From assembly GCF_037975245.1 (NCBI RefSeq), contig NC_092577.1, positions 3,369,501-3,433,500 on the forward strand: a stretch of DNA of 64,000 nucleotides, given 5' to 3'. The DNA comes from Apostichopus japonicus. Taxonomy: Eukaryota; Echinodermata; Holothuroidea; Aspidochirotida; Stichopodidae. Below the pieces are notes generated by a model, which was given only the letters and a program-made list of their open reading frames with translations, ran no database searches and had not been told where the DNA came from. This document shows positions 1-45,905 of the stretch, one piece after another; positions within the stretch are counted from its first letter, which is position 1; every line of letters starts with the position of its first letter. The translations under genes and the position numbers were made by a program.

Positions 1-1570
1 AACTTGAAAACAAATTCTCCGTTAGGGTTGGGAGTTGCTTCAATGTAATCCAATTGTCGACCCGCATCTGGGTGACCCTTGACCTCAATTTGACCTCTGG
101 TGACCTTTTTGTGTTTTGTGGATTTTTACAGTTTCGATGCTATTTTCAGATGTTAAAGGTACCTTCTGATCATAAATGTCAATGGGTTGACCCCCGTGTG
201 ACCTTCATGTGCGAAGTTATATGAGGTCAAAGTTAATTTTCAGACATTTAATGCAATAACTCCCAGTTCCAAGGTGTGACAAGGTTGATATTTTTGGAGT
301 AGTTGCAAATGGTATAGAGGAATATTTTCAAACTTAACGGTCATGTGATACAAGGTCACCATAGGTCAATTTATGATAAAAAACTAGTATTTTGGGGGGA
401 GAAAATGGGCAAAGAAAACATGTTTGAATTTTTATAGTTTGATGCTATATTCACGTCTCACCGATCAAAAATTTCAATGAGTTGACCCAAGGTGACCTTT
501 GTGGGTTCAGTTATATGAAGTCAAAGTTAATCTTCAGACATTTAGTGCAATAACTCCCAGTGCCAAAGTGTGACATGGTTGATATTTTTGGACAAGTTGC
601 AAATGGTAGAGGGGAATATTTTCCAACTTAACGGTCATGTGATCCGAGGTCACCAAAGGTCAATTAATGTTAGAAAACTAGTATTTTGGGGGGAGAAAAT
701 GATAAAAGTGAGAAAAGTTTGAATTTTTATAGTTTTGACACTATATTTACATCTCACCAATCAAAAATGTCAATGGGTTGACTCAAGTGACCTTTGTGTG
801 TGAAGTTATACAAGGTCAAAGTTAATTTTGAGACATTTAAATTCAATAACTCCCTGTGACACTGTTCATATTTTGGGGCAAGTTGTGAACTGGTTAGGGG
901 AACATTTTGAAACTTAACATTCATGTGATCCAAGGTCACCAAAGGTCAATTAATGTTTAAAAAACTAGTATTTTGGGGGAAGAAAATTGGCAAAGACAAA
1001 AATGTTTGAATTTTTATAGTTTTGATGCTGTATACACGTCTCACCGATCGAAAATGTCAATGGGTTAACCCCAGGTGACCTATGTGTGTGAAGTTATATG
1101 AGGTCAAAGTTAATTTTCAGACATTTAATGCAATAACTCCCAGTGCCAAAGTGTGACACGATTGATATTTTGGATCAAGTTGCGAATGGTACAAGGGAAT
1201 ATTTCAAACTTATCAGTCATGTGATCCGAGGTCACCAAAGGTCAATTAATATTTAAAAAACTAATATTTTGGGGGGAGAAAATGGGCAAAGAGAAAAACG
1301 TTTGAATTTTTATAGTTTTGATGTTATATTCACGTCTCACCGAACAAAAATGTCCATGGGTTGACCCCAGGTGACCTTTGTGTGTGAAGTTATATGAGGT
1401 CTCCCGTTTCAATTGAACACCCACTTCCCCAGTTATGAGGAGCCAAAGGTTGGTTTTGCCTTTTAAGCAATAACATTCTATGTGAACATTGTAACAAATA
1501 ACAATTTTAAGACATAATTTCATATCATCGAGGGGAACATTTCTGATAAATACCATGAGGTCATCTAAGG
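1..1570. repeat. ~294 bp satellite-like tandem array
   Basis: About 4.7 head-to-tail monomers. The landmark 'gtgacctttgtgtg' and its variants recur near 199, 494, 788, 1075 and 1371, giving spacings of 287-296 bp. Other shared blocks are 'ctagtattttggggggaga' and 'catttaatgcaataactccc'. The array runs off the left edge and fades after about 1400, where the sequence turns into a diverged variant. A partial copy in the same orientation lies near 14.4-14.85 kb. Each monomer carries one AGGTCA-N4-AGGTCA direct repeat. No coding potential was recognised; the short ORFs here are incidental. Confidence 0.9.
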
Positions 1571-3240
1571 TCATTCAAGATTGCTTATGTGCAAAAATCT
1601 GCCAACTTACACAGTATGGTAATTGTTGCAACAACAACTTGTAGTCAGGAAGTCTGACATGGCTGATATATTGTGACAAGTTGCAAATAAAGTAGTGGCA
1701 CGTTTTCAAAAATTAATGTTATTTGATCCCTGGTCACCATAAGTCAATTATAGGTCAAAATGTGTTTTCTTTTGTGCAATAACTAGTGAAACTACAACTT
1801 GCAAGTTTTGACATTGTTGATTTTTGAGCTACAAGGGCAAGAGGGCATTTGTCCCCTTAGAATTATTTCTTTGAATTTTTTTCCCTAATAATATATATAG
1901 GCAATATTATATAACTCCTCTGACATAGCATTTATGCCAAACACACAGGGTACTGCTGACATGACTCAACTTCTTTATCCATGGAAATAGTGAGATACAG
2001 TGGTGGCACTACAGGGGGGAGGGTCATTTTTCCCTTCATTTTTTTTTCTCTTTTGTACTTGAGAGGTCAAGCAGCAGTCTGCACTTTCGATTATTATCAG
2101 CAGTCTGAGCAGTGATGACTGATAGAATGCATGCATGGATGGACATTAAGGTTGGGAGTTAGCTATTGTAATCAATAGTTGATTTGCATCGGGCTGACTT
2201 TTGACATGTGTTACTTTCTTTGGTTATTTGAATGTTTGTATCAATTTTTGTGCTGGTCAGATCACCTATAGTAAATATATGAACATTTATTTTATGGTGA
2301 AACTATGAATTTGAAACATGCCATCAATCTGAAAATAACACAGACAAGGTAAACATGACCAAATACCAAGCTCAGATCTGGTACTCATTAAAACTTCTAT
2401 AATCAGGTTTAAATTTGCAATATTTTCAGAGGTTAGATGTGTAAAAGTTGTCCATTTGATACATTTTGACACCACCAAGAATCTATGTTGCCTCCATGTT
2501 ACCCCTGTCCGCCCTCCTCGATCCCAGTTTACTTAGGTTGGTGTCACCACTGGTGTGATACTCCATGCTTTATCCAAACATTACCCTTTTGGACAATTTG
2601 CCAAGTTTTGTATTTGTGAGATAAATAGATATTTACACCCCTAATAATCTATGTTGTATTCCTCCTCCCTGTTTACTTATGCTGGTACCACCACTGGTGA
2701 GACACTTCATGCTATATCCAAACATTGAACTTAGCTTTTGGACAATTTGCTAACTTTTATCCTTTAGAGGTCAAGCAGCAGTACTCAATTCAGATAATTG
2801 TCAACAGTGATGACTGATAGAATGCATGCATGGTTTTAATGGAACGAGGATATTTGGTTCAACTTCACATTGATGTATGTGATGCCCCCCTTCTGGTATA
2901 TTTAGGCCAGTGCCACCACTGGTGAGATACTCCATACTTTATCCAGACATTGAACTCAGCTCCTGCACAATTTGCTTACTTTTGTCCTTGAGAGGTCAAG
3001 CAGCAGTCTTCACTCCAGATGATTATCAGCAGTGATGACTGATAGAATGCATGCATAGTTTTAGTGGTACAGAGGATATTTGGTTCAACTTGAAACTGAG
3101 TTCAGAATCAGATACTATTAATAACAGCATTTCAGGACTGCAGCATTCTAAACCATTCTTTCACCCTATCTGGATCGATTATTTATATTGCAACACTACT
3201 AGTACTATGGGCATCTGTAGAATCTGAACAAAGTGTTATT
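1571..3240. repeat. Dispersed repeat region, three copies of one motif
   Basis: There is no gene here. A block containing 'gaggtcaagcagcagt', 'cagtgatgactgatagaatg' and 'catgcat' occurs three times in the same orientation, near 2068-2150, 2763-2835 and 2993-3095. The last two copies also share 'gaggatatttggttcaactt' downstream. Between them 'ccaccactggtgagacactt' and 'tatccaaacattgaac' recur. This looks like an old tandem or transposon-derived repeat of unknown class. Confidence 0.7.
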
Positions 3241-5060
3241 ATTTATCTTTGTCGGTAACTGAATACAACGTTGTATATACAAGCATTGCGCCTATGTACC
3301 GTACCCAACATAATACATACTGTACAACGTTGCTTATTGGATCGGAGTGAACGATATTGTTGCGAATCAAGGTATTATATCTTTATTCCGTTGTTAACGT
3401 TTTCCTTAATGTTTTGCAATTATCGAGATTCAGTGTCAAATAAACAAGAGAATTGACGAGGTGCCGTTTACGAAAATTTACTGTCGCCTAGTTAGATTTT
3501 AATCAATGACCACTCTTAACTCGAACAAAATAGGCAAGGCCTGTGGGCAATTTATGTACAGTAGTCCAGGACAAGCCTGTGTTTTAAGGTAGTTTGTACC
3601 CAAACATTAATCAGGCGTAGCAGTAGGTCTAAGTTAGAACAATGGCAGTATGCTGTCTACAGTCTTTCACTTCAGCGACATATGAAGGAAATACAGTGCA
3701 TTAGGATTAGGTCTACGAGAGTTCATCTGCAGCTATGCTTTTTTTTTTGGTTATTGACTAATATTAGCAGCCATTTGGATACCAAATCAATTGCACTTGG
3801 ATAAAGCCATACTACTTTTCCAGGTCAGGTAAATTCAAGTTCACTTCATTGATTCTAGTCTAGGCCTGCAGATTTGCTATAATTTGGAGTCAGCTTTGAA
3901 GAAAATATGTTTTCAGTGTTAGGCCTAGGACTAGGAGTATTCATCTTCAGGAAAGAAATGTACAGAATGTATACTAGCCTAGGCCTTTTATTTTTGTTAT
4001 TTGACTAATGTTAGCAGCCAGGTGGATGAGAAATCAAATGACCTTGGAAAAGCCATAGTACTTTACTAGGTTAGTAAAATTCAAGTTCACTTCATTGACT
4101 CTAGACTTAGCCTATGTCTTACTTTTGTTAGTCCTAAGAGGGTTTTAGATGTGCTCTGCCCCTGGTCCTTTCTTCTCATCAATTTCCGCACGTACAGTCA
4201 TTTACATTAATGAAATAATATGGAAACGGCACAAGAACAGTGTTGTTTGTTTACATGTTTGAAGCCAGAAAATCACCATTATCTAAGATGTATGCAGAAA
4301 GTAAAGGTGGGAGAAAAATAAGTGTAAACTACCCCATGTTGGCTGGCCCCAATGCCAGACTCAAGCCATTTTTTTTTAGATAATGTTTATTTTCCTTTAT
4401 TTCTATTTTGCAGGTGAGCTATATCAGTTCAACACCCAAGGGCTTCACGTTCTATTATCAGAGTTAACGATATTGTTGCAAATCAAGGTATATCTTTCCT
4501 TCTGTTGTTTAAGGTTCCTTGGTATTTGCAATTGTCGAGATTCAGTGCCAAATAAAATCTTCAGGTTGAATGGTTATGTTGGAGAAATGACCAAGCGTGG
4601 TTTATGAAAATTAACTGTCACTTAATTAGATTTTTATCAAGACCACTCTTAACTCGAACAGAATTGGCTAGGCAAATGGGTAATTTATGTAGTCTAGGAT
4701 AGGTTTAACTTTAAAGTTAAATAACCCAGACATTAAATCAGGCTGGAATAGGCTTATCTTATACCAACAGTAGTATACTGAAGTCTGGCAATGAGATATG
4801 GAGAAATACATTACATTAGGATTAGGCCTAATTTTTCTTAGTGTTTTCTGTTTACATGTTTTGAAGGCAGAAGGCACCATTTTCTATGCTGTGAGAAAAA
4901 GTAAAGGTGAGTTAAAATAAGTGTATTAAGCTACCCCATGTAGGCTGGTCCCAAAGCTAGACACAGTCATTTTTTCTGGAAAACATGTTTATTTTTCTGT
5001 ATTTTTATTTTGCAGGTGAGCTATACCAGTTCAACACCAAAGGCTTGAAGTTCTGTGTAA
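3240..5060 (+). repeat. Triplicated exon-like module with splice-type borders
   Basis: One block, 'cgatattgttgc(g/a)aatcaag' followed by gta and then 'attcagtg(t/c)caaata', occurs at about 3351-3450 and 4467-4560, and both copies continue with 'accactcttaactcgaaca'. A second block, 'tattttgcaggtgagctata' followed by 'cagttcaacacc', occurs at about 4405-4440 and 5008-5040. In the 4.4 kb copy the two blocks bound an exon-like interval: acceptor 'tttgcag' near 4413 and donor 'caag|gtatat' near 4490. No conserved ORF runs through it, so if transcribed it would be a non-coding leader. It lies just upstream of the Helentron and could be its leader or unrelated host sequence. Confidence 0.55.
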
Positions 5061-5078
5061 GTTCCTTGTTTATTAAAA

Positions 5079-5310
5079 GCCATCCCAGGGCTGATAATAC
5101 TGGTTCAAACTTGATTTTCATTAAGCCATCCCAGGGCTTACAATACTGGTTCAAAGTTGATATTTATTAAGCCATCCCAGGGCTTACAATACTGGTTCAA
5201 AGTTGATATTATAACCCATCCCAGGGGCTTACAATACTGGTTCAAAGTTTGATAACTATAAAGCCATCCCAAGGCTTACAGTACTGGTTCAAAGTTGATA
5301 ATTACTAGCT
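5079..5310 (+). repeat. 46 bp minisatellite upstream of the Helentron ORF
   Basis: Five direct copies of a unit starting 'gccatcccagggcttacaat' and containing 'actggttcaaagttgat'. Units start near 5079, 5125, 5171, 5215 and 5263 (period 44-48 bp). It directly follows the third exon-like module and precedes about 670 bp of non-repetitive AT-rich sequence before the Helentron start codon. Short tandem arrays near the ends are known in Helentrons, so this may lie inside the element. Confidence 0.85.
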
Positions 5311-5979
5311 ATCATTTTATGTTAAGATAACTATACAGTTTACTTGGTCAATCAAACTAGCAGTTTATCAGGCCAAATATTATCAAAACTTCATGTCTAA
5401 AAATTGCTGACAAGCACTGCAAAGAGCTAAAAATATCGAAAGTACTAATAAAGCAAAAGAACTGCTACAAATTACTAACAAAGCATATGTAGGGCACTGA
5501 AAATACTCCAAACAAAAACCCGGAAAACTGCTCAAATTACTGACAATCAGAACAAAGTATAGTGCAAATAATCATAAAAAAAAGGAAACTTTGAAACATA
5601 TATATCAAAGGCATTTCTTAAACAGTTCTGATAGAAAACCGCATACTACTTGACAGTAATTAAAACCCACTTTAAGAACATCCTTATCACTTCTTGAAAT
5701 CATTTCTAGGCAACTCAACAAGTACTTTGACATAAAACAACTTTAAGCACACATAAAGCACTTAACAATATTAACAAGAACTTCACAGGGATACAAAAAG
5801 TACTTCAATTCCAAGCATTGCAAAGAAAACCATTCCAGAAAAAATAACACACATTCTGATCAAATGCTTGTGATAGATATCCAAAATCCACAACAGCATT
5901 AACAGTCAATCACTCTCTATATGCACTGCTATCCCACAGAAACTGTTGTCTGAAAGGAGATTGTCCACAATATTCTGTC

Positions 5980-8900
5980 ATGCCACGAACAAAAAAATTG
6001 AGTTACAGACAGCGAAACAAGACAAGAAGAGAATCAAAGCAAAACATAACATCAAAGCAAACATGCCAGTCACAAACATATGCTAATGAAACTCTCTCTG
6101 AAAAAGCAGTAGAGCAACATTCAGATGGTCAATCAAACATTACTGATATTAACTTGCAAAATATACACACTCATGACACATTTACTTTCTTCCCTCCAGA
6201 TGACTTATGGCGTGATGGAAAGATTGCTATATTAAAGCAGTTAATAACAGACAATAACGAGCAAATTCATACCAGTTCTTATCCAAATTTCCCAAATATT
6301 TGCAGTCCAATATTGTATACTAATACTGCAAGACCATGTAATATTTGGAGAATAATAGGTGATGGGAATTGTTTCTTTAGATCTTTGTCATTCATAATAA
6401 CCAGGTCTGAAAATAATCATCATATCCTAAGACGCTTGATAGTGCAATCTCTTCTGGAATGTGACCTACCATCTACTAGTAAATCTGTTCAGGATTATAT
6501 TCAAACATCCCATATGTCAGATGATTCAGTGTGGGCTACTGAAGTGGAAATAATGACTGCTGCAAAACTTTTACAAACTGACATTTATACATATGCTGTA
6601 TCTGGTAGTGAATGGAAATGGCTACGATTCCCAGCATGTGGTAGTCTCTCAGAAAGAATAGATACAAATAAACGTGCAATTTACATACAAAACACAAATA
6701 GAAATCACTTTGATGTCGTGTATGGACTCAATAATACTGATCTCTGTCTTGTAGCAGAGAACCTTGAATCTGCCCAACCAAAAACAACAAGAGATCGTGT
6801 ACAAGAAGAACTGAACAGACAAAACTTGTGGCAACAAAATAAAGATGAACAGAAACAGAAAGTGAACATCACTAAATTACCTCCCAGTAGTAGTTGTTCC
6901 AACAGTACTAAACGAATGCAAAAACTTAGAGCAACTAACAGTGCATACAGAGAACAAGAAAGGAAAAAAGACATTATTTACCAAAGAACTAGAAGACAAA
7001 ACAAAATGTACTGTGAAGAACAAATGCAAAAGAATATTAAAAGAATGAAAACCAAGAGGACAGATTGTGTGTACACTCAAAATGAAAGAACAAGAAATAC
7101 CAAGCGAATGAAAGATATCAGACAACAACCGGACTACTCTCAAAATGAAAAAGTACAAAACAGGAAACGAAAGAAAGAAAGAAGACAAAATCAGGAGTAT
7201 TCTAAAAATGAACAGAAACAAAACATGAAACGAATGAAAGACACAAGACAAAATAAGGAGTACTCTAAAAATGAAAAAATACAAAACATCAAACGAGTGA
7301 AAGACACAAGACAAAATGAGGAGTACTCTCAAAATGAGAGAAAGCAAAACATTAAACGGATGAAAGACACAAGACAAAATGAGGAATACTCTCAAAAGGA
7401 AAAGAAACAAAACATCAAACGGATGAAAAACACAAGACAAAATGAGGAGTACTCTCAAAAGGAAAAGATACAAAACATCAAACGAGTGAAAGACATACGA
7501 CAAAATGAGGAGTACTCTCAAAATGAGAGGAAAAAAAACATTAAACGGATGAAAGACACAAGACGAAATGAGGAGTACTCTCAAAATGAAAAGAAACAAA
7601 ACATCAAACGGATGAAAGGCACAAGACAAAAACTGGAATATTCTCAAATTGAACAGAAACAAAACATGAAACGAATGAACACTATTCGCAAAAATGACAC
7701 CTACACTGTCACAGAAAAACAAAAGAATCAAGAACGAATGGCAAAAGCTAGAACAGATCCACAGTTTGCAGCTAATGAAATCAAATCCAAATACAACAAG
7801 AGAACCAGCTGTAACACTTCATCAATTCAACAATTGCAACAAGGTTTTCTCAACTCTATTTCAGTAGGTCCAGAATATGTGTGCTGTTGTTGTGAACAGT
7901 TATGGTATAAAGAAAGTGTCACTAGCTTTGTACAGAAAACAGCAAAATCTACATTCAGCATTGCTTTACACAATCCTTCTATCAACAACAAATTGTGGAT
8001 TTGTAGTACCTGCAAGGAATATATTAATTCTGATAAGATACCACCATTAAGCCTTAACAATAACATGAAGTTTGTGACAGTTCCAAAAGAATTACAATTG
8101 CATTCTCTTGAAGAGAAATTAGTAGCTCTTCGTATACCATTTATGCAAATTCGAGAACTTCCTAGAGGGCGACAATTGAATCTGAAAGGAAATGTGGTAA
8201 ATGTTGCAGCTGATGTGTCAAGTACATGTAGACTATTACCACGCAGGCTAAATGAAAGCATGACTATTCCTGTCAAGTTTAAGAGAAAACTTTCTTATAA
8301 GCACTCGGTTCATAGTGAAAATGTCAGGCCCAATAAAGTAATTGATGCTGCACAATGGTTAGTTGCAAACAGTCAATTATACAAAGATGAAAGAGTCTCA
8401 ATTGATCAGAATTGGACGGAAACATTGCAGCAGATGGATGATGATTGGCACGAATTCATGGAACCTCTTGAAAAACAATCTGATAAAAATGAGAATGCTG
8501 ACTTACCAGTAGGTGCAACTCCTTCAATTCAAACCAATAATGAAGACAATCCAGATTCAGATGATGATTGGACAGAAGCTCAAAGTGAGGACATGCAACC
8601 TACAGGTACATTAGATACTATGCTAACACCAGAATTTCAGGAACAAAGCCAACTTGCTTATTGCGTAGCACCAGGTGAAGGAAATAGACCTATGGGCTTA
8701 TTTCAAGACAGTCTTTCTGAAATACTTGCATTTCCAACATTATTTTGTGGACAGCCAAGAAGTGACAACAAAGTTAAGGTACATTACAGCACAATATGTA
8801 AGTGGGAACTGCGTCACAAAGATAGAAGATTTGCCAAATCTGTCCAAAACATATTCTACAAAACCAAAAAGTTACAAATCAACCAAATACAGCAGAAAGT

Positions 8901-11900
8901 AACACTGAGTATGCGAAAGAAAAAAACACAAGGGAAGAAATTAACTGCTCAACATTTCAAAACAAATGAAAGTATCAAGCAAATATTGACCCTAGATGAA
9001 GGATTTAGAGTATTCCGAACATTACGAGGATCCCCTCCCTATTGGGAAAAGTCCAAGAAAGAACTGTTTGCAATGATTCGACAACTTGGAATCCCAACAT
9101 GGTTTCTGTCATTCTCTGCTGCTGAAACAAGGTGGCTTCACCTACTCAAAATCCTTGGAAGAACAGTCAAAAACAAACATTTCACGGATGAAGAACTCTT
9201 AAACATGAATTGGAATGAGAAATCTGACCTTATCCAGAGTGACCCTGTCACATGTGCACGTCACTTTGATTACATGTTTCGTAGGTTCTTGAATAATTTC
9301 CTGTATAGTTCATATCATCCAATTGGTGAGATCATTGATCATTTCTACAGAGTTGAGTTCCAACAGAGAGGTTCCCCACACATTCACATGCTAGTTTGGG
9401 TCAAAGATGCACCTTTATATGGAAATGCAGCTCCTACAGAAGTAGCATCATTTGTTGATCAATATGTCACATGTAACATACCTGACACAGTCAACCAAAC
9501 TGTTAACTTGCAATCTCACAGCCATGCAAAGATATGCAGGAAAAAGAGACAAGGTGTTTGTCGCTTTGGGTTTCCTATCCCACCAATGCCTAGAACTATG
9601 ATTCTAACACCATTGGAAGATAAAGGCAATGAAAAAACTACAGAATTGTACAAGTGCATAAAGGCCTACTTGGATGATTTGAAACTTGCTGAAGACATTA
9701 CTGACACATTTGAAGATATGTTGACAAAGTTGGGAAGCACAGAAAGAGATTACATTCTTGCTATACGTTCATCCATAACATCAGACAAAATCTTTCTCAA
9801 AAGATCACCATCTGAAGTCAGGATTAATGGTTACAATAAAGTCTTGCTAGAAACTTGGAGAGCTAATATGGATATTCAATATGTGCTGGACCCATATGCA
9901 TGTGCCATGTACATTGTATCTTACATTAGCAAAGGACAAAGAGGTATGAGTAATCTTATGCAGCGTGCAACATCAGAAGCAAGAGAAGGCAACATGGACA
10001 TCAAACAGCAAGTACGACACATTGGAAACAAATTCCTTAATCATGTTGAAATGAGTGCTCAAGAAGCAGTGTATTTGGTATTACAAATGCCACTCAGAAA
10101 AGCCTCCAGGCAGTTTGTGTTTATAAATACCTCACCATTAGAAGATCGAACAATCCTGATCAAACCATTGGAATATATTCAACAGTTGCCAGATTACTCT
10201 ACAGATATTGAATGTATGGGACTTATCAGGAAGTATGCTGTCCGACCTAAGGCACTACAACATTATTGCCTTGCAGACTTTGCAGCTTGGTTCGATATCA
10301 CTAGTGACAACAAGAGCAATGAGAGCACTAACAATGATTATGAATTAGATGAAAATGATGATGACCCTTCTATCAAATTGAACAAAGACAGCACTACCCA
10401 TGACTATGAATCACATGATAATGCTGATGACCATGATATGCAGGATACTGGTGAGGTCAAATGCTATGCTGTTGGTGCATTAAACTTTCGAAAAAGAAAC
10501 AAAGCCAAGATCATCAGATATGTTCGGTTTAACAAGGAAAATGATGCAGAAAAGTACTACAGAGAGCAACTGATGTTGTTTTTTCCTTGGAGATCTGAGA
10601 ATAATATCATAGAGTCATGTGATACGTACCAAGAACGATACCTTCAGGTTGAATCCGAGATTAAAGACAAGGAAGCAGAATATAACCACAGTGGAGATAT
10701 CATTGACCAGGCAATAGATGATATTGAAAATGAAGACCATGAGATGTATGATGAGATTGCACCTAATACAGAACATATGGAAAAGGCTCATCGAGACGAA
10801 AAGGATAAACAACAAGTGAAAATCCCTTCCAATGAATCACCTGAATTGTATGATATTGGACAAGACATTGGGATTGCAGTCAATAGTGCAAACATAGAAG
10901 AATTGCAAAAACCTCGCTTGCCTGATTCTGAATACAGAAGTCTAGTACGCAGCCTCAACAAACAACAGAAAGACTTTTTCTACTATGTACTGCATTGGTG
11001 CAAAATAAAGCAAGAACCAATGTACACATTTCTCACTGGCGGAGCTGGTGTAGGAAAATCTCAAGTATTGAAAGCTCTGTACAATGCACTTTTGAAATAC
11101 TATTCTAGCCAGCCTGGAAATGATCCAGATGATACTCACATTCTTCTAATGGCACCAACAGGCAAAGCAGCTTATGGTATTAAAGGCAGTACCATTCACA
11201 GTGCTCTACTCATTCCAGCTAGTCAAGGATTTCATTACAAGGCATTAACATCAGACAAGCTAAACTCACTTCGAGTGAAGTTCAGAAATTTGAAAATCAT
11301 TTTCATTGATGAAATATCTATGGTTGGTAATGGAATGTTTACATACATAGATAAAAGACTCCAACAAATTAAGGGTAGCAAGAAAATATTTGGAGGTGTT
11401 AGCATTATTGCTGTTGGTGATCTCTTTCAACTCAAGCCCGTGTTTGATGGATGGATATTTAATGATCTAACTCATGATTATGGTCCACTTGCATCTAATT
11501 TATGGAGAGATCATTTTATGGCCTTTGAACTAACTGAAATCATGCGACAAAAAGATGACCACAGTTTTGCTCAACTTTTGAACCGACTAAGAGAAAATAG
11601 ACAAACAGATGATGATTTGAAGCTGCTGAACACTAGACAGTTTACAGCCGACAAGGTTCCATCAAATGTTACACATGTTTATCAGACAAACCTAAGGGTG
11701 AATGCACACAATGATGAAGTTTTTTCCAAACTAGACACTCTAAAGCTCACAATTAGATCTCAAGACATTGTCGTAGGTGATGTCCCAAACACAGTCAAAC
11801 AAAAAATACTGACTTGCATACCGAACAACCCTCAAAAGACAATGGGATTATTCACTGAACTCTCCTTGGGCATTGACCAACGAATTGACCTCTGTCTCAA

Positions 11901-13092
11901 TGTTTCAGTTGAAGATGGAATGATTAATGGTGCTACTGGTATCATCAAGTATATAGAGAATGTACATGATCAGAACATTCACACTATATGGGTACAGTTC
12001 GATGACATTAGTGTAGGTAAAGCATGTCGACACTCTAAAAGAGAACTGTATCATTCAAAGCTTGCTTCAACATGGACACCAATATCAAGAAGTAGTCGAC
12101 AGTTTAGGATTGGTCACAACAAAAATGCAGAAGTTATGCGGAAACAATTTCCCCTGAGACCAGCAACTGCAAAGACAGTCCATAGATGTCAAGGAGATAC
12201 AATGAAAGAGATAGTTGTTGATATGTCAGGTGCTAGATCACAATGTCACATCCACTATGTTGCATTAAGTAGAGTGACTTCCATAAATGGATTATACATT
12301 CTTGAACTTAATCCTGAAAAAATTAATGTCGATCGAAATGTTGTCAAGGAAGTAGAAAACCTTCGTTCCACACGATCATTGAAAATATGCAGCCATGCAT
12401 TTGAAAGTACGGACAGCACCACCATCATTCATCAAAATGTAAGATCACTGAAGAGACACATTTCTGACATAATTCATGACAGCACAATCACATCTGCTGA
12501 TATTCTACTTTTCACTGAATGCCATTTATCAGAAGCAGTAACAAATGATGAGCTGTACATTGAAGGATTTACACTATTCAAAAACATCCCATCTCATGCT
12601 CCTGTCTCAAATTCCCCATATGGCACTGTAATCTACACTAAGAATAATATCACAACACTCACTGAACATACACTGAATACAAATAATATTGAAATCTCCC
12701 TGACAACCAAAGACACATGTGCTGGAACTATTCAAATTGCACTAATTTACAGGTCTAAAAAGGTTCCCATGCAACAATTCCATGATGAATTGAGTAACTT
12801 TCTAAATCACATAGATCATTCACAACAAACATTGATTATTGGTGATTTCAATGTTGATGTACTCCAAAACACACCAGACAAAAACAGCCTTCTCTCTTTA
12901 TTCACAAGAACATTCAAATACAAACAAATCATACTCACTCCTACAACAGACTATAACTCATGCTTAGATCATATCTACACAAATATTCCTACAAGTAAAA
13001 CAATTGGTAGTGGAGTCCTTGAGAGCTATTACAGTGATCACAAAGCAACTTGGATTTCTCTGCAAAACTTCCATGAAAACACAACAAGTTAA
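5980..13092 (+). CDS. Helentron replicase-helicase-endonuclease polyprotein (OTU-Rep-PIF1-EEP)
   Basis: One uninterrupted ORF of 2370 codons with no intron. Domain order: an OTU-type cysteine protease fold with D128-G-N-C131 and H243; a Lys/Arg-rich stretch of 21-residue tandem repeats (about 363-570); a Cys-rich segment with CCCC near 635 and CSTC near 676, resembling the Cys-rich domain found before Helitron Rep; the Helitron Rep domain (about 1000-1330) with HUH motif H1134-I-H1136 and catalytic pair Y1311/Y1315; an acidic linker (about 1440-1640); a PIF1/RecD-like helicase with Walker A GGAGVGKS at 1687-1694, Walker B FIDE near 1776, and C-terminal motifs HRCQGD near 2067 and YVALSRV near 2094; and an endonuclease/exonuclease/phosphatase domain (about 2150-2365) with GDFNVD near 2288 and SDHKATW near 2352. 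By family knowledge the protein nicks and transfers one strand (Rep), unwinds DNA (helicase) and may nick targets (EEP). The first Met at 5980 is followed directly by a basic stretch. Every catalytic residue I can check is present, which suggests a young or recently active copy. Confidence 0.95.
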   Translation: MPRTKKLSYRQRNKTRRESKQNITSKQTCQSQTYANETLSEKAVEQHSDGQSNITDINLQNIHTHDTFTFFPPDDLWRDGKIAILKQLITDNNEQIHTSSYPNFPNICSPILYTNTARPCNIWRIIGDGNCFFRSLSFIITRSENNHHILRRLIVQSLLECDLPSTSKSVQDYIQTSHMSDDSVWATEVEIMTAAKLLQTDIYTYAVSGSEWKWLRFPACGSLSERIDTNKRAIYIQNTNRNHFDVVYGLNNTDLCLVAENLESAQPKTTRDRVQEELNRQNLWQQNKDEQKQKVNITKLPPSSSCSNSTKRMQKLRATNSAYREQERKKDIIYQRTRRQNKMYCEEQMQKNIKRMKTKRTDCVYTQNERTRNTKRMKDIRQQPDYSQNEKVQNRKRKKERRQNQEYSKNEQKQNMKRMKDTRQNKEYSKNEKIQNIKRVKDTRQNEEYSQNERKQNIKRMKDTRQNEEYSQKEKKQNIKRMKNTRQNEEYSQKEKIQNIKRVKDIRQNEEYSQNERKKNIKRMKDTRRNEEYSQNEKKQNIKRMKGTRQKLEYSQIEQKQNMKRMNTIRKNDTYTVTEKQKNQERMAKARTDPQFAANEIKSKYNKRTSCNTSSIQQLQQGFLNSISVGPEYVCCCCEQLWYKESVTSFVQKTAKSTFSIALHNPSINNKLWICSTCKEYINSDKIPPLSLNNNMKFVTVPKELQLHSLEEKLVALRIPFMQIRELPRGRQLNLKGNVVNVAADVSSTCRLLPRRLNESMTIPVKFKRKLSYKHSVHSENVRPNKVIDAAQWLVANSQLYKDERVSIDQNWTETLQQMDDDWHEFMEPLEKQSDKNENADLPVGATPSIQTNNEDNPDSDDDWTEAQSEDMQPTGTLDTMLTPEFQEQSQLAYCVAPGEGNRPMGLFQDSLSEILAFPTLFCGQPRSDNKVKVHYSTICKWELRHKDRRFAKSVQNIFYKTKKLQINQIQQKVTLSMRKKKTQGKKLTAQHFKTNESIKQILTLDEGFRVFRTLRGSPPYWEKSKKELFAMIRQLGIPTWFLSFSAAETRWLHLLKILGRTVKNKHFTDEELLNMNWNEKSDLIQSDPVTCARHFDYMFRRFLNNFLYSSYHPIGEIIDHFYRVEFQQRGSPHIHMLVWVKDAPLYGNAAPTEVASFVDQYVTCNIPDTVNQTVNLQSHSHAKICRKKRQGVCRFGFPIPPMPRTMILTPLEDKGNEKTTELYKCIKAYLDDLKLAEDITDTFEDMLTKLGSTERDYILAIRSSITSDKIFLKRSPSEVRINGYNKVLLETWRANMDIQYVLDPYACAMYIVSYISKGQRGMSNLMQRATSEAREGNMDIKQQVRHIGNKFLNHVEMSAQEAVYLVLQMPLRKASRQFVFINTSPLEDRTILIKPLEYIQQLPDYSTDIECMGLIRKYAVRPKALQHYCLADFAAWFDITSDNKSNESTNNDYELDENDDDPSIKLNKDSTTHDYESHDNADDHDMQDTGEVKCYAVGALNFRKRNKAKIIRYVRFNKENDAEKYYREQLMLFFPWRSENNIIESCDTYQERYLQVESEIKDKEAEYNHSGDIIDQAIDDIENEDHEMYDEIAPNTEHMEKAHRDEKDKQQVKIPSNESPELYDIGQDIGIAVNSANIEELQKPRLPDSEYRSLVRSLNKQQKDFFYYVLHWCKIKQEPMYTFLTGGAGVGKSQVLKALYNALLKYYSSQPGNDPDDTHILLMAPTGKAAYGIKGSTIHSALLIPASQGFHYKALTSDKLNSLRVKFRNLKIIFIDEISMVGNGMFTYIDKRLQQIKGSKKIFGGVSIIAVGDLFQLKPVFDGWIFNDLTHDYGPLASNLWRDHFMAFELTEIMRQKDDHSFAQLLNRLRENRQTDDDLKLLNTRQFTADKVPSNVTHVYQTNLRVNAHNDEVFSKLDTLKLTIRSQDIVVGDVPNTVKQKILTCIPNNPQKTMGLFTELSLGIDQRIDLCLNVSVEDGMINGATGIIKYIENVHDQNIHTIWVQFDDISVGKACRHSKRELYHSKLASTWTPISRSSRQFRIGHNKNAEVMRKQFPLRPATAKTVHRCQGDTMKEIVVDMSGARSQCHIHYVALSRVTSINGLYILELNPEKINVDRNVVKEVENLRSTRSLKICSHAFESTDSTTIIHQNVRSLKRHISDIIHDSTITSADILLFTECHLSEAVTNDELYIEGFTLFKNIPSHAPVSNSPYGTVIYTKNNITTLTEHTLNTNNIEISLTTKDTCAGTIQIALIYRSKKVPMQQFHDELSNFLNHIDHSQQTLIIGDFNVDVLQNTPDKNSLLSLFTRTFKYKQIILTPTTDYNSCLDHIYTNIPTSKTIGSGVLESYYSDHKATWISLQNFHENTTS

Positions 13093-13660
13093 ACCAAAAT
13101 ATGTGTACCATATGTCTTATGTGCTCAACTTTGAACAATATTTAACCAAATTTGAACCAAATTTTGAAGTAACTTAAGAAACTTTTATATTTCTTTGAAA
13201 AGTGAAACAAAATTGATGATATTTCTTTAAAAAATGGATCAAAATTGATGAAGCTGAAATCACATTTGATTAACCTTGCAAATTTTAACAAAGATGTAAA
13301 AAACCAGAACAAAATTTGAACATTCATGAATAAACTTGAACACAATTTGAACAAATCTTAACAAAACTTGAACCTATTTTGAGATTTCTTCCAAATATTT
13401 TTCCAAATTTGAATAAATGTGAACCAAATTTGAAAAAACTTGAATTAAATTTGAACAAAGTGGAACAAATCGTGACCGAAATTTGAACAAGGTTGAACAA
13501 ATCGTGAACAAAATTTGAACCAATTCGAATAACCTTGACAATGTTAACAACAAATTTGAACAAAATTTTTAATTTCTGTAAAAAATTGAACAAAATTGAT
13601 GAAACTGAAACCAAATTTGAATAACCTTGCTAATTTGAACCAAAATTTAACAAACTAGAA
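13093..13660. repeat. AT-rich degenerate minisatellite 3' of the Helentron ORF
   Basis: Irregular repeats of 'aacaaaatttgaac' and 'accaaatttgaa' fill about 13140-13640. Short ORFs here, such as the Phe-rich ones on the minus strand, are products of the repeat. It probably belongs to the Helentron 3' region. Confidence 0.75.
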
Positions 13661-13807
13661 CAACATCCAGCTAAAGATAACAAGGTATCACGTTTCATTA
13701 TTGTCTGCATTTTGTAGCGACACAAACAAAACTTCACTTGCAAGGAACAGAATGTTAACTTTTTCAGATGTCCGCACGCAGTTTGGACGAGTCTTCAGTG
13801 CCTTTAA
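13661..13807 (+). repeat. Dispersed repeat block, copy A
   Basis: Shares long runs with the reverse complement of 47752-47897, for example 'gacacaaacaaaac', 'gttaactttttc', 'gcgac/gtgac' and 'gagtcttca(g/a)tgccttta'. I judge it roughly 85% similar by eye. Both copies stop matching just after 'cctttaa', which suggests a true element end there. It lies about 570 bp after the Helentron stop codon. Confidence 0.75.
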
Positions 13808-14409
13808 ATCCAAGTCCATGCATATCGAAGACAATCAAATTTGCAAAATTTAACTTCTCCAGTAATCAAAGCAAACTTGAAAACTTGTTTACAGAGGCCA
13901 GCTGCCCACCCCGTTGCCAGTCCTATCATTACGAATAACATTATAATCGGGAATTCTAATAATTGATGTGGTTATATTGTCATGAAACCAGATTTTCATA
14001 GTTGCAGCAAACCTAAAAGAACATTTAATGAAAAACACAATAGGTCATTAACTGTTCATGATTTTTTCAGAGACTGCAGGTATTCAAATGAAATAACATA
14101 ATATTTGTTTCTATAATCTTTTCATTGCAGATTCATGAGCCATAAATTAGGCTCATAACTTCAGCAATCGTGAGCGCAGAAATGGACCAAAGAACATACA
14201 GTTCACCATACTCAATAAAGATGAGTTACAATAGCTGACCCTCCCAACCGATAAAACGGACAGCTTTCTTGAAGGAGCCACCATAGTTCAGAAGTTTAAG
14301 TTCATATATTTTACAAAACAGCAGTACAGTTTATATCTACTATTTGAAAAAAATAAACAATATCAATGTATTTAAGGTATCTGAGTATTTGTCTTTTTTC
14401 AGTTATTTG
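13808..14409. other. Non-coding stretch
   Basis: I see no gene or clear repeat. The base composition is ordinary, with several short ORFs on both strands and no family resemblance. Confidence 0.5.
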
Positions 14410-14850
14410 ACAAAAGTTAATTTTCAGACATTTAATGCAATAACTCCCAGTTAATGGAAAAGGGAAATATTTTTAAACCTAACGGTCATTTGATTCAAAG
14501 TCACCAAGGGTCAATTAATGTTAAAAAACTAGTATTTTGGGGGAGAAAATGGGCAAAGAAAAAATGATTTAAGTTTTATAATAGTTTTGATGCTGTATTC
14601 ACATTTCACTGATCAAAATGTCAATTGGTTGACCTCCGGGTGACCTTTTTGTGTGAAGTTATGTATTCAAGTTCAAAGTTAATTTTTAGACATTTAATGC
14701 AATAACTCTTAGTGCCAAGGTGTGACAGTTGATATTTTGGGACAAGTTGTGAATGGGGTGGTAGAACATTTTCAAACTAAACGGTGATCTGAGGTCACCA
14801 ATGTTATCATATCTGTTGACCCGCTTGTAGGTGACTTTATATTTCTTACA
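14410..14850 (+). repeat. Partial copy of the 294 bp satellite
   Basis: Contains 'agttaattttcagacattta', 'atgcaataactccc', 'ctagtattttggggg' and a second half-unit from about 14640 ('gtgacctttttgtgtgaagt'), all in the same orientation as the 1-1570 array. The direct-repeat site has decayed here (AAGTCA-CCAA-GGGTCA). The 14772-15107 ORF lies on repeat-derived sequence and is not called as a gene. Confidence 0.85.
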
Positions 14851-15650
14851 TTTTTGACGTCACATTCAGATCTCAAAAGTGCCTTCCGATCAAAAATCCG
14901 ATCACAATTTGTGATCACAAAAGTGTTGGCTATAGTGTTGGTTATTTTATGGGTACAAGTAGGACCACAATTACTTGGACTATTTGAGCCCAATCTTGCT
15001 ATGATAATATTATGTGTATTGTCATATACCCCTACGCAAGGAACCGCAGTGCCCTTGGGCTCTTGTTCATGATTATTGTTGAGCATGAGGTTCATTGTGG
15101 TGAACATGAAGTTATAGGTCGACCATTAACAGCAGCATCGTACAAGCATATAGGCAGCACTAATCAACACTAACTGTTGCAAAAGGTGGGAGTAAGATTG
15201 AAGCTTTCCTGACCAAATTGAAACGTTTCTTTTTTGCCTATTTTCAAGATATGATATAACCACAAACCAAATGATCTCTGTATGACCTTAGAAGTCAACG
15301 CTACAGTACATTAGCTCATGGTTCTATTTTAATTTAAATTTGAAATAAGTTAAAGTTTTCGTTTCACTTAATTTATAGTTAGATTTATTGATAACGATTA
15401 GTGTTTTGTTTCTCACACAACTACGAATAAGAAAAAAAGGGATTCTAAAAATGATAATTCGAACACATTGCATCCATGATAATTACGAAAGTTATCTGAA
15501 ATGTCTGACGTCCTGATGGAGTAAGAGGTCATAGGTTATAGGTAATGAATATAATCATTGTACCGTATCATGTAACCTTGCCCCTGGTAAAATTATAGGC
15601 ATTCCGATTTTAAATCCCTCCATTATCTTCTATTTGTTTTTCGTTGTTAG
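14851..15650. other. Non-coding stretch upstream of the FZ-EGF-FZ gene
   Basis: The missing 5' exon(s) of the gene at 15651 might lie here or further upstream. I could not find a convincing start codon with signal peptide and donor site. A hydrophobic ORF at 14854-15072 begins in satellite sequence and has no matching donor, so I did not join it. Confidence 0.4.
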
Positions 15651-17525
15651 GTTGTCTGACGTCACTGTTGGTCGATTGTCATCCAATCAGCGGTTGCCAA
15701 ACGACCGCGCCAAATAGATACGGTTACGGGAATACTCCGGACAGGATATACCAGACATTCGGCAATTTCAAGATGCTATTACAAAACTTTGAATGCCATT
15801 CTAGATCAAAAGAGTTCTTATGCGCCATAATCCATCCTCCCTGCCGAACTCGTATCGATCAAAATGTGAATGAATTAAACTACGTTTTCGATATTGTAAA
15901 TTTCGTTCAGCAAAAGACTCCTATACCTTGCAAGTCCCTCTGTAACCAAATTGGCGACGAATGCCTGAAGAACTTACCTGAATCCCATAGGGGAGGGTTT
16001 TACGATTTATGCAACAGAATGCCAGAATCAGCCTCGGAAGCTATGTGTTTTGGTGGCAACCTTTCCAATGCAGGTGAGATTTGCATCCGAGGAGAGAAGG
16101 GGGTGGTGTTGGGCTGGGGGAGGGGGGGGGGGGCGGTGGGCAGGGGTCGGCAAAAATGTGACCTTGTGAACCGGCAATTTATCTTTCATCCGTTATGCTG
16201 AAATATGCTATCACACGTTGGAGCTATGTAAAGTAATGTTAGCTCCTCCTAACCACCATTTGTCACGTTGACCCTCATAGGCTTGTACTTTCCGCGGGGA
16301 AACGTTTGCAAATCGTTTCGCGGGCCGCAGGAAACTTGCTCACGAGCCGTATGTTATACACCTACCTGTGTTATATATGTATCAACTTAGAATCACCTAA
16401 TCATGGCTTTTTAGTTTTGTCATGGAAAGCAATGTTCGCTTGAGGTAGGTAGAGGTGTTTAATTTAATGTTTGACCAGGTTGGAAATGTGCATTTTCTAT
16501 ATATATATATTTTCAGCTGCTGATTGTCAACCCAATCCTTGTCTTAATGGTGGACTCTGTTTCATACAACGGGAACAACAATATTGTCAATGTACCACTG
16601 GATTCTATGGGACTCTATGCAAAAATGGTAAACAATGACGTCATTGCGTCACCCGTATGACACCTTACGAAAGTAGTCAACTATGGCCTTAAGATAAATA
16701 GGTGGTGCTATTCTTAATCAGATGTGTGATAAAATAGCGAATATGGGCTGTCCACCAGCTTTCCATGTTCATAACTGAAAAAAGTGCCTTTCTTTTTTCT
16801 TAAATTTACAAATTGGCCTTTTGTTGACAAATTGAAAAATATAAATAAAAGTGCCATTAAATGGAAAAAGCAACAACAAAAATGGAAATATTCGGGTTGA
16901 ATGCACAGAGTATCCATTTTTTTGAAAAGTTTAGAGGTATCTTTTTGGTCTTCCGAGACCAAAGTTGGACGGCCCCTGCCCCTCTTCGATTTCACCTCCT
17001 CAGATTGAATCCTCTTCTGTCGCCCTAGCAACAATAGCAAATGAAACGAAAACAGCAATGGCAATATCGATCACAATTTGTCGTTAATTACTTTAATTAC
17101 TTCAAATTGTATTAAAAATGTATTGTAATTAGTTACATAACTGTCTCTCTCTCTCCCCAGGAAACGTTACAAGTTACAATATCAGTAATGATCAATGTGT
17201 TCGCCTTCCGGAAGAATGTCGTTCGGTCCTACCCTACAATAACACTAGAGGTATCAACCTGAATGGAACAAATATGGCTTACATTGCATCATGGGATACC
17301 ATAGCAACAGTTGCCCGTGACAGCTCAACGAAGAAAACGTTATGCGCATTTGCCTACCCACAATGCCCTTCGGATGGCACAATAATCTATAAAGCCTGCC
17401 AAAAATCGTGTATGAAAGTGAAAAATGAAATCGAATTTCTGTTAGCAGCGATGTCTTATCCTACTTTAGAATGTGACAAGGCACTAGATGATAATTCGCT
17501 TCCTACAGGGACCGAATGTATCTGA
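15651..17525 (+). CDS. FZ-EGF-FZ secreted/extracellular protein (three 3' exons, 5' end missing)
   Basis: Three exons are joined in phase: 15651-16073 (acceptor 'ttgttag', donor 'gtgaga'), 16517-16627 (acceptor 'ttttcag', donor 'gtaaac') and 17161-17525 (acceptor 'ctccccag', stop TGA). Exon 1 encodes a frizzled-type Cys-rich domain (FLCAIIHPPC, then IPCKSLCNQIGDEC, FYDLC, MCF). Exon 2 is a textbook EGF-like domain (DCQPNPCLNGGLC, then CQCTTGFYGTLC). Exon 3 is a second FZ-like domain (CVRLPEEC, LPYNNT, LCAFAYPQC, KACQKSC). FZ domains bind Wnt or lipid ligands in frizzled, sFRP and corin proteins, but the partner here is unknown. The protein ends right after the second FZ domain with no membrane segment visible. 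The N-terminal exon with signal peptide was not found, so the model is partial. It could also be the C-terminal part of a larger mosaic receptor. Confidence 0.8.
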
Positions 17526-24500: not shown

Positions 24501-27500
24501 ATTTGACTATGGTAGCCAGTACAGAACATAACAGCGTCTAAATCTTCAACTGTTGATCCATCTTGGAAGACAACTCCAGTATCCGTGAAATTTCGAATAC
24601 TTGGCTTCGGTAAAATATTACCAGACAACACTTGATTAATAAAGTTATCATTGAGTATCGCTCCGGTTGAACGTACTCCATTTTCAGAAGGAATGTTTAG
24701 ACCCAAATGTTCACATCGGAACTTCTTATAACTTTCTCTTCGAATGAGATATGTTTCAATCCAGGCCGGTAGTAACTGTATTAAACGCATTCCAATAAAT
24801 GAATCGAACGGCCAGCCGTTAGGACCAATCACAGGTGTGATGGAAAGGCCATTTCTACTACTGATATAGGTCTAAGAAAAAGAATAAAAAAGAATAAGAA
24901 TTAAACAAAATTGAAATCATAATGTCGGATTATTCTTCCCAAAGAAAGATAAAGTCGAAATACTTTTGGATATTATGGCAACAGTAACTGAGATCCTGTC
25001 ATAGATTTAGATTTTAAGAGAACAAACAAACTCAACGCATATAAACTCGTAGTAATTAATTTCACAAAATTAATTTCATAAAAAAGAAAGAAATTTGTGA
25101 GCACGAGAGAGGGGGAGGGGAGAGGGGAGGGGTATCTTGATCATCCAGGGCACTACCACGTTATTTTTCTTTTTCAGTAGCGAGTTCCTGCTTGCGGGAA
25201 GATCACTATACATACATACATACATACATACATACATACATACATACATACATACATACATACATACATACATACATACATACATACATACATACATACA
25301 TACATACATACATACATACATACATACATACATACATACATACATACATACATACATACATACATACATACATACATACATACATACATACATACATACA
25401 TACATACATACATACATACATACATACATACATACATACATACATACATACATACATACATACATACATACATACATACATACATACATACATACATACA
25501 TACATACATACATACATACATACATACATACATACATACATACATACATACATACATACATACATACATACATACATACATACATACATACATACATACA
25601 TACATACATACATACATGTCTTAAGTATGGGAGTATAGAAGGGGGCAGGAGGGGAGGGGGTTGTGAGACGAGGACACATCGATATAATAATTATTTGTCC
25701 GTCCCTTTACTACGTCCTTTACTGTTAACATCATCTTTGAGAAAAAAAAATGATTTCTGGTGGCTTTTGAAACTAGTAGCCTAGTAGAAATTCTAATTGG
25801 GGGGGGGCGCTACTCGCCTATACTAAGGATCAATTCAGTGCGAAACCATTGTAATTTTTATGACACTTATAAACTACCTGTTTCGAGGCATTACTTATGT
25901 CGGTTGCTATGTCACCAGCTGAAATTCCGCCACCTTCAAACAATAAAATGCGAGAGAGAGAGAGAGAGGAGTAAACATTAAGACAAAAAAATAAATAAAA
26001 AATAATGATTAATTGTTTAATTCATTAAGGTAATAAATATAACCTATTTTTTCCCAAAGTTGCCTTTAATTTCCAAATTTTGGTAATTTACCAAATGGAA
26101 AGAAATCAGTTGTATACGTACTTTCTTCCCGATAAAAAAATATGTTAATGTATGCCAAAATAACAAGAGCAGTTTATATAATAATGGTCGTCGCACCGAT
26201 ATGAGAACGCCTTCAAAAATGTACTTTCTTGATGAGGTCATTGGTGGTAACTCGAAGCGTTTTGCTGTAGAAACCATATGCAATTTGACAGCGAATTTTC
26301 TTCATTTTAACAGGATTTGAGGAAATGTTTGTTCGAAATGTTTTGACTAAGTTGGCGCTCTAGACTGGAGGTGATAGGTTACGGTTTCGAGCAAGGTTAG
26401 GCCTAACCCCAATTCGAGCTCTGTGGACAAAGACAGTGCATTATAAACGTTTTATTTTGAAATGTTTGGGGAACATGTAAAATATGATTTTGTTTTGCTC
26501 TAATAGCATTAACAGACCCACTCATAACTCATTGTCTAGAAATTTTTCTTTTACAGTAGCTTTAATCCCACAGGATTATTGAAATACGGATTTGAGCAAC
26601 TTAGGAAAAACGTATAATTACGTTACTAGTCGCAATATAGTTGAACCGGTTACGCCAATGACGTCATATACTATCGAATGATCAACCAAATTTGTTTGTG
26701 CCCTTGGTCGGCGATTAATTTCCTTTTTGTAAATTTCTACATTGCTGTTAAAAATTTGCGCCCAAAAAGTGCGGAAAATATTTATCAACATGTCCAAAAT
26801 GTTGTATTCTCTTTGCCTTTACAAGGCTTGAGTAACACGCTCTAAGGGGAAAAAAAGAGCAACAGGTTACACAATTGGAGGAATTCTTACGTATCAGATC
26901 AAGGCAAAAATGTCGTCACTGTATGAAGTTTTGATCGTATACTTGTTAAAAGACAACATTATCTAAATACATTGCAATATCTCTCGAACAACAGGGTTAA
27001 TTGGTTACCTAGCAACAAGGTACTTTCGTATTGCTTATGCAATGACTACGAATTATCACACCCAGTTGGGACGATTTTTTTTCTATACTGTAGTGCCATG
27101 TCCCGCTTCAGAGCACTCGTATTGTCAGTACGAGCATTATGTGTATCATGTTTCTATCAGATCAAGGTTAGGAACTGTTTGTACTGTCAGTTCCAGTGCT
27201 TTGAAGCATGATATTGGAGTACAGTTTAGAGAGGTATTAGCATTACAATCAGAGTAAGTTTGGGAACTTTTTGTACTGTCAGTTCCAGTGCTTTGAAGCA
27301 TGATATTAGAGTACAGCTTAAGAGAGGTACTATTAGCATTAGGAAATTGTCCAAACTGGTTGTTTTATCATCGTTCACAACACGGCCCTACATTTTTCTT
27401 ACTTTTCAAGTGGACGAGCTTGTCCATGAATGTACCATGAACCACAATTGTAATGTAAAACCACCTGAAAGGCGATAGAGAGCAAGTAATATATGTACAG

Positions 27501-45009: not shown

Positions 45010-45565
45010 TCTATTACTTTAGATAAAGGTTAGGTATCACTGATACTGTCAGTATGAGTGCTTTGAAGCATGATATGGGAGGACAGTACAGAGTGGTATT
45101 AGCATTACACTCGGATAAAGATTAGGAACTGTTCATACTGTCAGTATGATTGCTTTGAAGCATAATACAGAAGGACAGTATAGAGTGGTATTAGCTCAGA
45201 TAAAGGTTAGGAACTGTTCATACTGTCAGTACGAGTGCTTTGAAGCATGATATTGTAGGACAGTTTAGAGTGGTATTAACATAAGTATCAGATAAAGATT
45301 AGGAACTGTTCATACTGTAAGTACGAGAGCTTTGAAGCATGATACAGAAGGACAGTATAGAGTGGTATTAGCTCAGATAAAGGTAAGGAACTGTTCATAC
45401 TGTCAGTACAAGAGCTTTGAAGCATTACATTGGAGGACAGTATAGAGTGGTATTAGCATTAGAATCAGATAAAGGTTTAGGAGCTGTTCACACTGTCAGT
45501 ACGAGTGCTTTGAAGCATTACATGGGAGGGCAGTATCGAGTGGTATTAGCATTAGAATCCGATAA
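45010..45565 (+). repeat. ~90 bp minisatellite family, locus 2
   Basis: Six head-to-tail units, each with 'gaactgttcatactgtcagt', 'gctttgaagca' and 'acagtatagagtggtattag'. Landmark spacings alternate 92, 85, 92, 85 and 93 bp, suggesting a ~177 bp dimer as the amplified unit. The array lies about 340 bp beyond the UQCC1 stop codon. Confidence 0.95.
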
Positions 45566-45905
45566 AGGCATCTAAGAAAATTGTCCCAAACATTGTGATT
45601 CCTATTTGTATTCTAATTTGCATATAAGATTCTGCACTATGTCATATTCAGAATATTTATACCCTGACTCACCTTTAACAGTGTCTCTCTCATAAACATA
45701 GCACCGACTATGTCCGTAAAAAAACTTGCAGACGTAGTAATACATTAGTTAGACTGGTGGAAATTAATGTGCTTTCAAATTCACATTTACCACATTCCAT
45801 TGGTAAACTGCACTTAAATTATAACAACCTGTGTACATTAGTGTGTCCTACAAAGTCAATACACACAGCGAAAACTTCAGAACTGAACACATCACTATCC
45901 GTGGG

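Follow-up and report, generated by a model that had tools for sequence, protein, structure and literature searches.

Ends, copies and end-sharing relatives of a 17.8-kb rolling-circle transposon in an echinoderm-like genome

A 7.1-kb open reading frame (ORF) that joins OTU-like, Rep, PIF1 helicase and EEP endonuclease domains in a single predicted protein raises two questions. To what kind of element does such a gene belong, and has that element, or its family, moved recently? The window analysed here is a 64,000-nucleotide stretch of DNA (C17:3369501-3433500), and relatives were sought in the genome of 671.6 Mb, assembled in 35 contigs. The ORF proves to be only the core of a 17.8-kb rolling-circle transposon. 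A preliminary description of this locus had placed the transposon at 5980..13092. These coordinates are right for the gene and too narrow for the element, which starts 2715 bases left of the window and ends at window position 15066.

Layout of the element and its protein

The whole element occupies C17:3366786-3384566 (17,781 bp), as determined from the points at which homology stops in other copies and from a paralogous empty site. Its 5' end reads TGGTTCCTTGC TTTA GCAAAAGGAACC.... The left-hand homology stops at TGGTTCCTTGCTTTAGCAAAAGGAACC in the six copies that were read so far to the left (one base differs in copy C17_16.06), and on the right 10 of the 11 copies lose homology after ...GCAAGGAACCGCAGTGCCCTTGGGCTCTTGT, at window position 15066, where C17_16.95 deviates by one base. 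The length of 17,781 bp is assigned because homology to other copies ends at both of these points. Lengths in the five further copies whose two ends were read range from 15,880 to 17,888 bp. In the eleventh copy, on C15, this 3' stop is missing and homology runs into another 5' array.

Much of the DNA outside the gene is repetitive (Table 1). The first units of the 5' array precede the window, from about -2455, and diverged unit material extends to about 1750. The 5' leader is kept in 8 of the 10 other copies read, with 89-91% identity (97% in C5). The subterminal inverted repeat of the window copy, GGTTCCTTGC/GCAAGGAACC, is 10 bp long, where 11 identical bp serve to define families; with the 3' variant carried by 82 of the 83 one-mismatch ends listed, it becomes an 11-bp repeat, TGGTTCCTTGC/GCAAGGAACCA. 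The palindrome at the 5' end is more stable than 194 of 200 shuffles (z -2.42). The stem of the 3' palindrome ends 9 nt before the end of the element, and its folding is no better than that of shuffles (z -0.55).

Table 1. Features of the element in window coordinates
Feature	Position	Strand	Evidence or remark
Element, part within the window	1-15066	+	5' end 2715 bases left of window base 1
5' satellite-like array, right part (296-bp and related units)	1-1401	+	TRF (168-1401, period 296), blast, unit positions
5' leader region	3904-5304	+	comparison with other copies, TRF
46-bp tandem repeats closing the 5' leader	5077-5304	+	TRF
Single ORF, 2370 aa	5980-13092	+	ORF translation, Pfam, scripted residue check
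OTU-like cysteine protease core, aa 127-247	6358-6720	+	GDGNC C131, HFDVV H243; below Pfam cut-off
In-frame 63-nt (21-aa) tandem repeats, 9.7 units	7071-7679	+	TRF
Helitron_like_N / Rep domain, aa 941-1139, FYR-VEFQQRGSPHIH	8800-9396	+	Pfam E 6e-28, motif check
Catalytic tyrosines Y1311/Y1315	9910-9924	+	downstream of Rep domain; scripted check
PIF1 helicase, aa 1659-1871	10954-11592	+	Pfam E 2e-22; more motifs up to aa 2098
EEP (AP-like) endonuclease, Exo_endo_phos aa 2153-2354	12436-13041	+	Pfam E 5e-10
Further array unit material inside the 3' end	14453-14801	+	blast, unit positions
3' subterminal inverted repeat GCAAGGAACC	15036-15045	+	complement of 5' GGTTCCTTGC
3' palindrome, 5-bp stem CAAGG/CCTTG	15037-15057	+	element ends ...GGGCTCTTGT at 15066

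Two other readings of these repeats were rejected. The 296-bp array flanking the ORF might have been a host satellite split by a 13-kb insertion, but it is internal to the element in other copies. Positions 13666-13807, which are 83% like one end of 47752-48115 on the opposite strand, were considered as a Helentron 3' end; homology extends past these positions in each of the 10 other copies read.

Several features outside the element were also recorded. Window 47752 to about 48115, whose part 47889-47752 is the one resembling the Helentron-internal stretch, is by eye a separate, short MITE-like element whose inverted ends read CTTAAAGGCATTGAAGACTCGC ... GCGAGTCTTCACACCCTTTAAC. Three places in the window (27156-27329, 45021-45567 and 48589-48944) carry a family of 92-bp tandem repeats, in both orientations, and a 756-aa ORF with an N-terminal RING finger lies at 38914-41184 on the minus strand. 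Elsewhere in the genome, C29:14745-31219 holds five COX1 fragments, besides the complete COX1 on C35, and these are perhaps broken-up mitochondrial sequence. The C35 gene was translated with mitochondrial codes 9 and 5, and it is code 9, in which AAA is Asn, that yields STNHKDIG, GNWLIP and MNNMSFW, the residues usual in COX1. Code 9 is used by echinoderm and flatworm mitochondria; the host is probably an echinoderm and conceivably a sea cucumber.

The ORF of the window copy has no internal stop. Its 2370-aa product is ordered as an OTU-like region, a linker of 21-aa repeats, DUF6570 (aa 685-811, Pfam E 2.7e-20), Rep (HUH/Y2), PIF1 helicase and EEP endonuclease, with the endonuclease fused C-terminally to Rep/helicase within the one ORF. 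A scripted check located the HUH residues H1134/H1136 in EFQQRGSPHIH (aa 1126-1136), Walker A GGAGVGKS at aa 1687-1694, and the endonuclease motifs GDFN (2288-2291) and SDH (2352-2354), together with QNVRSL and FTEC. When phmmer was run against PDB sequences, PIF1 helicases were matched, as was Helraiser (E 1.5e-5). The OTU-like region is less securely identified: its Pfam match (aa 127-213) scores 21.7 bits, below the cut-off of 23.3 (E 3e-4), phmmer matches it weakly to viral OTU proteases (5jze, E 6e-4), and AlphaFold2 prediction of aa 81-273 without an alignment gives a pLDDT of 33, too low for the model to be used. Apart from this sub-threshold OTU match, Pfam and motifs agree with the preliminary description of a single-ORF Helentron with four domains and no stop or frameshift over 7.1 kb. 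Every catalytic residue that it listed (C131, H243, H1134/H1136, Y1311/Y1315, 1687-1694, GDFN and SDH) is in its place.

The repeat linker is basic and Asn/Gln-rich. Its unit number varies among copies, including intact ones, and ORFs range from 2303 to 2454 aa. No other coding gene was recognised among the stop-to-stop frames of the element, the longest of which are 110 aa (left) and 101 aa (right) in the window copy and 129 aa in the left part of C3; genes with introns may be present in addition. A scan of viral contigs found no relatives.

Copies, insertion sites and selection

The first 621 nt of the ORF were used as a query for further copies. The 31 matching stretches obtained (a lower bound) merge into 28 loci, all of which were scored, and 18 of the 31 are at least 89% identical and almost full length. 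The near relatives anticipated for this element are therefore present in the genome, rather than one diverged copy. Eleven copies were read: the window copy and the 10 next best-matching ones, with 18 kb around each of the ten. Seven have an uninterrupted ORF, and four (C5, C3, C17_21.7 and C17_16.06) are broken. This proportion overstates the intact share, because the 11 are the best-matching of the 28 loci. Among the 17 other loci, 7 match nearly in full and 10 match partially or at about 73-90%, and most copies of the family may be broken. The window copy had been thought to stand out as intact among Helentrons that are mostly broken. The copies read do not support this special status, although the statement about the majority may hold for the family.

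The loci are unevenly distributed. C17 holds 17 of the 28 yet makes up 5.5% of the genome (binomial P 5e-15), and 16 of these 17 lie within about 8.4 Mb, mainly at 16.0-24.4 Mb. Our guess is that this is a low-recombination or heterochromatic block; local duplication of some loci is also possible. On C15, in the copy at C15:29231103-29249102, the 5' array of another element starts where the 3' end is absent, about 65 kb from the contig end, an arrangement that could represent a head-to-tail pair of elements.

The best sign of recent movement in the family comes from three other copies. Over 16.6 kb, C3, C20_31 and C17_24.3 share 99.5-99.9% identity. Each has a 3' flank of its own, and C3 and C20_31 are unlike in the 5' flank as well; they are therefore separate insertions, C17_24.3 being judged by its 3' flank. 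The window copy differs from its nearest relative, C5, by 1.4% in the ORF and from the other nine copies by 2.7-4.0%. Its insertion need not be very recent, because the nearest relative is this far away, and recent movement, suggested for this copy, is seen more clearly in the three near-identical copies. The same distance of 1.4% lends some weight to a rival reading, that the window copy is a decayed, fortuitously open Helentron relic, long immobile. Such a relic is improbable. Against it stand the seven uninterrupted ORFs, the identity of up to 99.9% among family members, and two further kinds of evidence from insertion sites and from selection.

Each of the six copies whose two ends were read is inserted between T and T, with no target duplication, and five of these insertions come after at least four Ts. 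Empty sites were examined for the window copy and for the one on C4. For the window copy, a joined-flank search and alignment identified a paralogue at C17:3320602-3322200, 45 kb left of the element and 97% identical over 1.6 kb. Its sequence passes through the junction without a break, and nothing is duplicated or lost there. The paralogue may have arisen by local duplication or be a second haplotype that was not merged; in both cases it is an empty site for an insertion between T and T, and its 97% identity argues against a long-immobile relic. The C4 copy sits in a dispersed repeat. At least 40 places (the best 40 of 898 first-look candidates) span its junction at 98-99%, and the four of those 40 that were fetched and aligned match across the junction. 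The flanks shared with the 97% paralogue of the window copy reach at least to window 15918, and a frizzled-domain ORF is located just right of the element, at 15644-16201.

Aligned copies also record how the protein has been constrained. Ka/Ks between subfamilies is 0.17-0.22 with the repeat linker excluded, which shows purifying selection on the ORF at this level. Regional ratios are lower for Rep (0.13) and PIF1 (0.15), which are more constrained, than for OTU (0.32) and EEP (0.44). Within the C4 group the ratio is 0.35-0.58 on few changes, and C20_31 differs from C17_24.3 by 6 non-synonymous and 0 synonymous substitutions; the youngest branches are thus without evidence of constraint.

Changes private to single copies bear on the window copy itself. 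It carries 12 synonymous and 12 non-synonymous private changes, where about 24% synonymous would be expected without constraint (P 0.005 against neutrality, from a simple test that is one of eight, uncorrected, and ignores gene conversion). A synonymous excess is also seen in C17_16.95 (30:18, P 1e-8), C5 (12:15, P 0.015) and C4 (7:7, P 0.03). It is absent from C23 (4:6) and C15 (3:11), both intact, and from C17_21.7 (6:17) and C17_16.06 (19:60). C20_31, C17_24.3 and C3 were left out, having 0 to 3 private changes each. The excess in the window copy speaks against a relic, although it is no proof that this copy works, because the broken C5 shows an excess too.

Class, mechanism and shared ends

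We hold with high confidence that the element is an autonomous-type, endonuclease-bearing Helentron whose family moved recently in this echinoderm-like genome. The class assignment is drawn from sequence features, namely the Rep motif, the fused endonuclease, the ends and the target site. In Helentrons, Rep motif 2 takes the form (V/I)ExQxRGSPHxH after (F/Y)(w/l/y/k)R, and the window copy has FYR-VEFQQRGSPHIH. A canonical Helitron would begin with 5' TC, end with 3' CTRR and insert between A and T, whereas a Helitron2 would have a single Rep/helicase ORF without endonuclease. Rep and PIF1 are common to all of these groups, so that their presence alone would suit either. Both are nonetheless very unlikely here, since the ends are TGGTT...CTCTTGT at T^T instead of TC...CTRR at A^T, an S stands between G and P in Rep motif 2, and an EEP endonuclease is present. 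That the ORF is a host gene, domesticated from a Helentron and kept for a host function, would fit the purifying selection between subfamilies but has almost no probability, since the ORF lies within complete transposon ends, its start recurs at 28 loci, some of them fragments, and the 3' flanks all differ among the 10 copies with a 3' end.

The transposition cycle of such a Helentron can be outlined from its parts. The palindrome and the subterminal repeat would mark the 5' end for nicking by the Rep domain, and the PIF1 helicase would peel off one strand. Transfer would be ended by the 3' subterminal repeat and hairpin, and the strand would then be joined between two Ts. The EEP domain perhaps helps to open or choose the T-rich target. 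More speculatively, the OTU-like domain may be a deubiquitinase directed against host control. We infer this biochemistry, and likewise that the window copy is still competent.

The ends of the element are far more numerous than its gene. At no more than one mismatch, the genome contains 634 matches to the 5' end and 600 to the 3' end, with 0 matches to reversed controls. A partner 3' end, on the same strand and no more than 25 kb away, exists for 56 of the 62 exact 5' ends located on C1, C2, C3 and part of C4. The spans of these pairs have a median of 2.69 kb, and 53 of the 56 are at most 5.6 kb. They cluster near 2.29, 2.67 and 3.08 kb; these steps of about 0.4 kb resemble the array units of C15, which are roughly 399 bp long. 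Two of the pairs are autonomous copies, and one other spans 13.0 kb. Three short copies were read (1324, 1324 and 1982 bp). Each is built of array units enclosed by the two ends, is flanked by T/T and is gene-less; these three are HINEs in the sense given in the available part of PMC4067079. The remaining short copies would, judging by their length, likewise lack genes.

Exact 3'-end matches to the window copy number 17, and 9 of these belong to the 11 copies read. The other 583 have one mismatch, and 82 of the 83 listed among them have the same A for G. The short copies therefore do not come from the window copy in particular. Of the suggestion that this copy could be the source of non-autonomous ones, the existence of many copies with its ends is supported, the three short ones read being gene-less, and a particular role of the window copy is not.

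Some copies carry their final segment more than once. A 3'-terminal unit of 100 bp is present eight times in C17_24.3 (C17:24306099-24315098), twice in C3 and C20_31 and once in the other seven copies with a 3' end. The terminal units of C17_24.3 are arranged head-to-tail, and units 2-8 are identical. Because little else separates these three copies, the shift from two units to eight, or the reverse, is recent. Termination stutter during rolling-circle transfer is one conceivable origin, to which we give limited credence; later slippage or unequal exchange is possible, as is an assembly error. If stutter of the terminator were the cause, errors of rolling-circle termination would be recorded directly in the series of copies. 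No publication plainly on 3'-terminal tandem units was recognised from titles and abstract openings, which does not establish their absence from print. Tandem arrays of whole Helitrons have been ascribed to a bypassed termination signal (PMC4067079).

Comparison with known systems

Helentrons are defined by a fused endonuclease, the Rep motif, subterminal repeats, a 3' palindrome and T-rich targets (PMC4067079), and OTU is listed among their proteins (Thomas, Vadnagara and Pritham 2014; PMC4067079). Those that bear an endonuclease often carry OTU (PMC5148889), and animal Helentrons with OTU, endonuclease and proteins over 2,000 aa are described (PMC6431247). For sea urchin, the available part of PMC4067079 reports Helentron proteins and not full-length elements.

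The element described here resembles these Helentrons in its C-terminal AP-like endonuclease on Rep/PIF1 and in Rep motif 2, and its OTU-like region may correspond to their OTU. It also shares with them a T-rich target without duplication and non-autonomous partners that carry its ends and outnumber the autonomous copies. Its 10-bp subterminal inverted repeat and its 3' palindrome may be counterparts of theirs. It differs from the Helentrons in the available part of PMC4067079 in its size of 17.8 kb, in the multi-kb satellite-like array inside autonomous copies and in the variable 21-aa protein repeat.

Its short relatives have counterparts as well. Cg_HINE of Crassostrea gigas comprises gene-less Helentrons with a microsatellite, satellite-like central repeats, an 11-12-bp subTIR, a TT target and empty sites (PMC7492417). 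The autonomous partner of these oyster HINEs is unresolved in the accessible text of that report, whereas autonomous-type copies with the same ends and similar array units are found here. By their description, DINE-1 (PMC4067079) and DINE-TR1 of Drosophila are also similar, being non-autonomous repeats related to Helentrons, a part of which contain internal tandem repeats. Fusarium FoHeli, of the Helitron2 type, shares asymmetric terminal inverted repeats and hairpins with the present element but is described as being without an endonuclease domain (PMC5148889).

The architecture of the element is thus already known, because its parts are described in the available portions of PMC4067079, PMC5148889, PMC6431247 and PMC7492417, and the view of the Helentron class is unchanged by it. 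What is added here is a complete, well-bounded Helentron together with relatives that have the same ends. Complete Helentrons with exact ends occur in one genome together with empty sites, several uninterrupted coding copies, near-identical insertions and many end-sharing relatives, of which the short ones read are gene-less and consist of the same array units. This makes it possible to test, in a single system, the partnership between long and short copies, what the endonuclease contributes to T^T targeting and how the satellite-like arrays arose.
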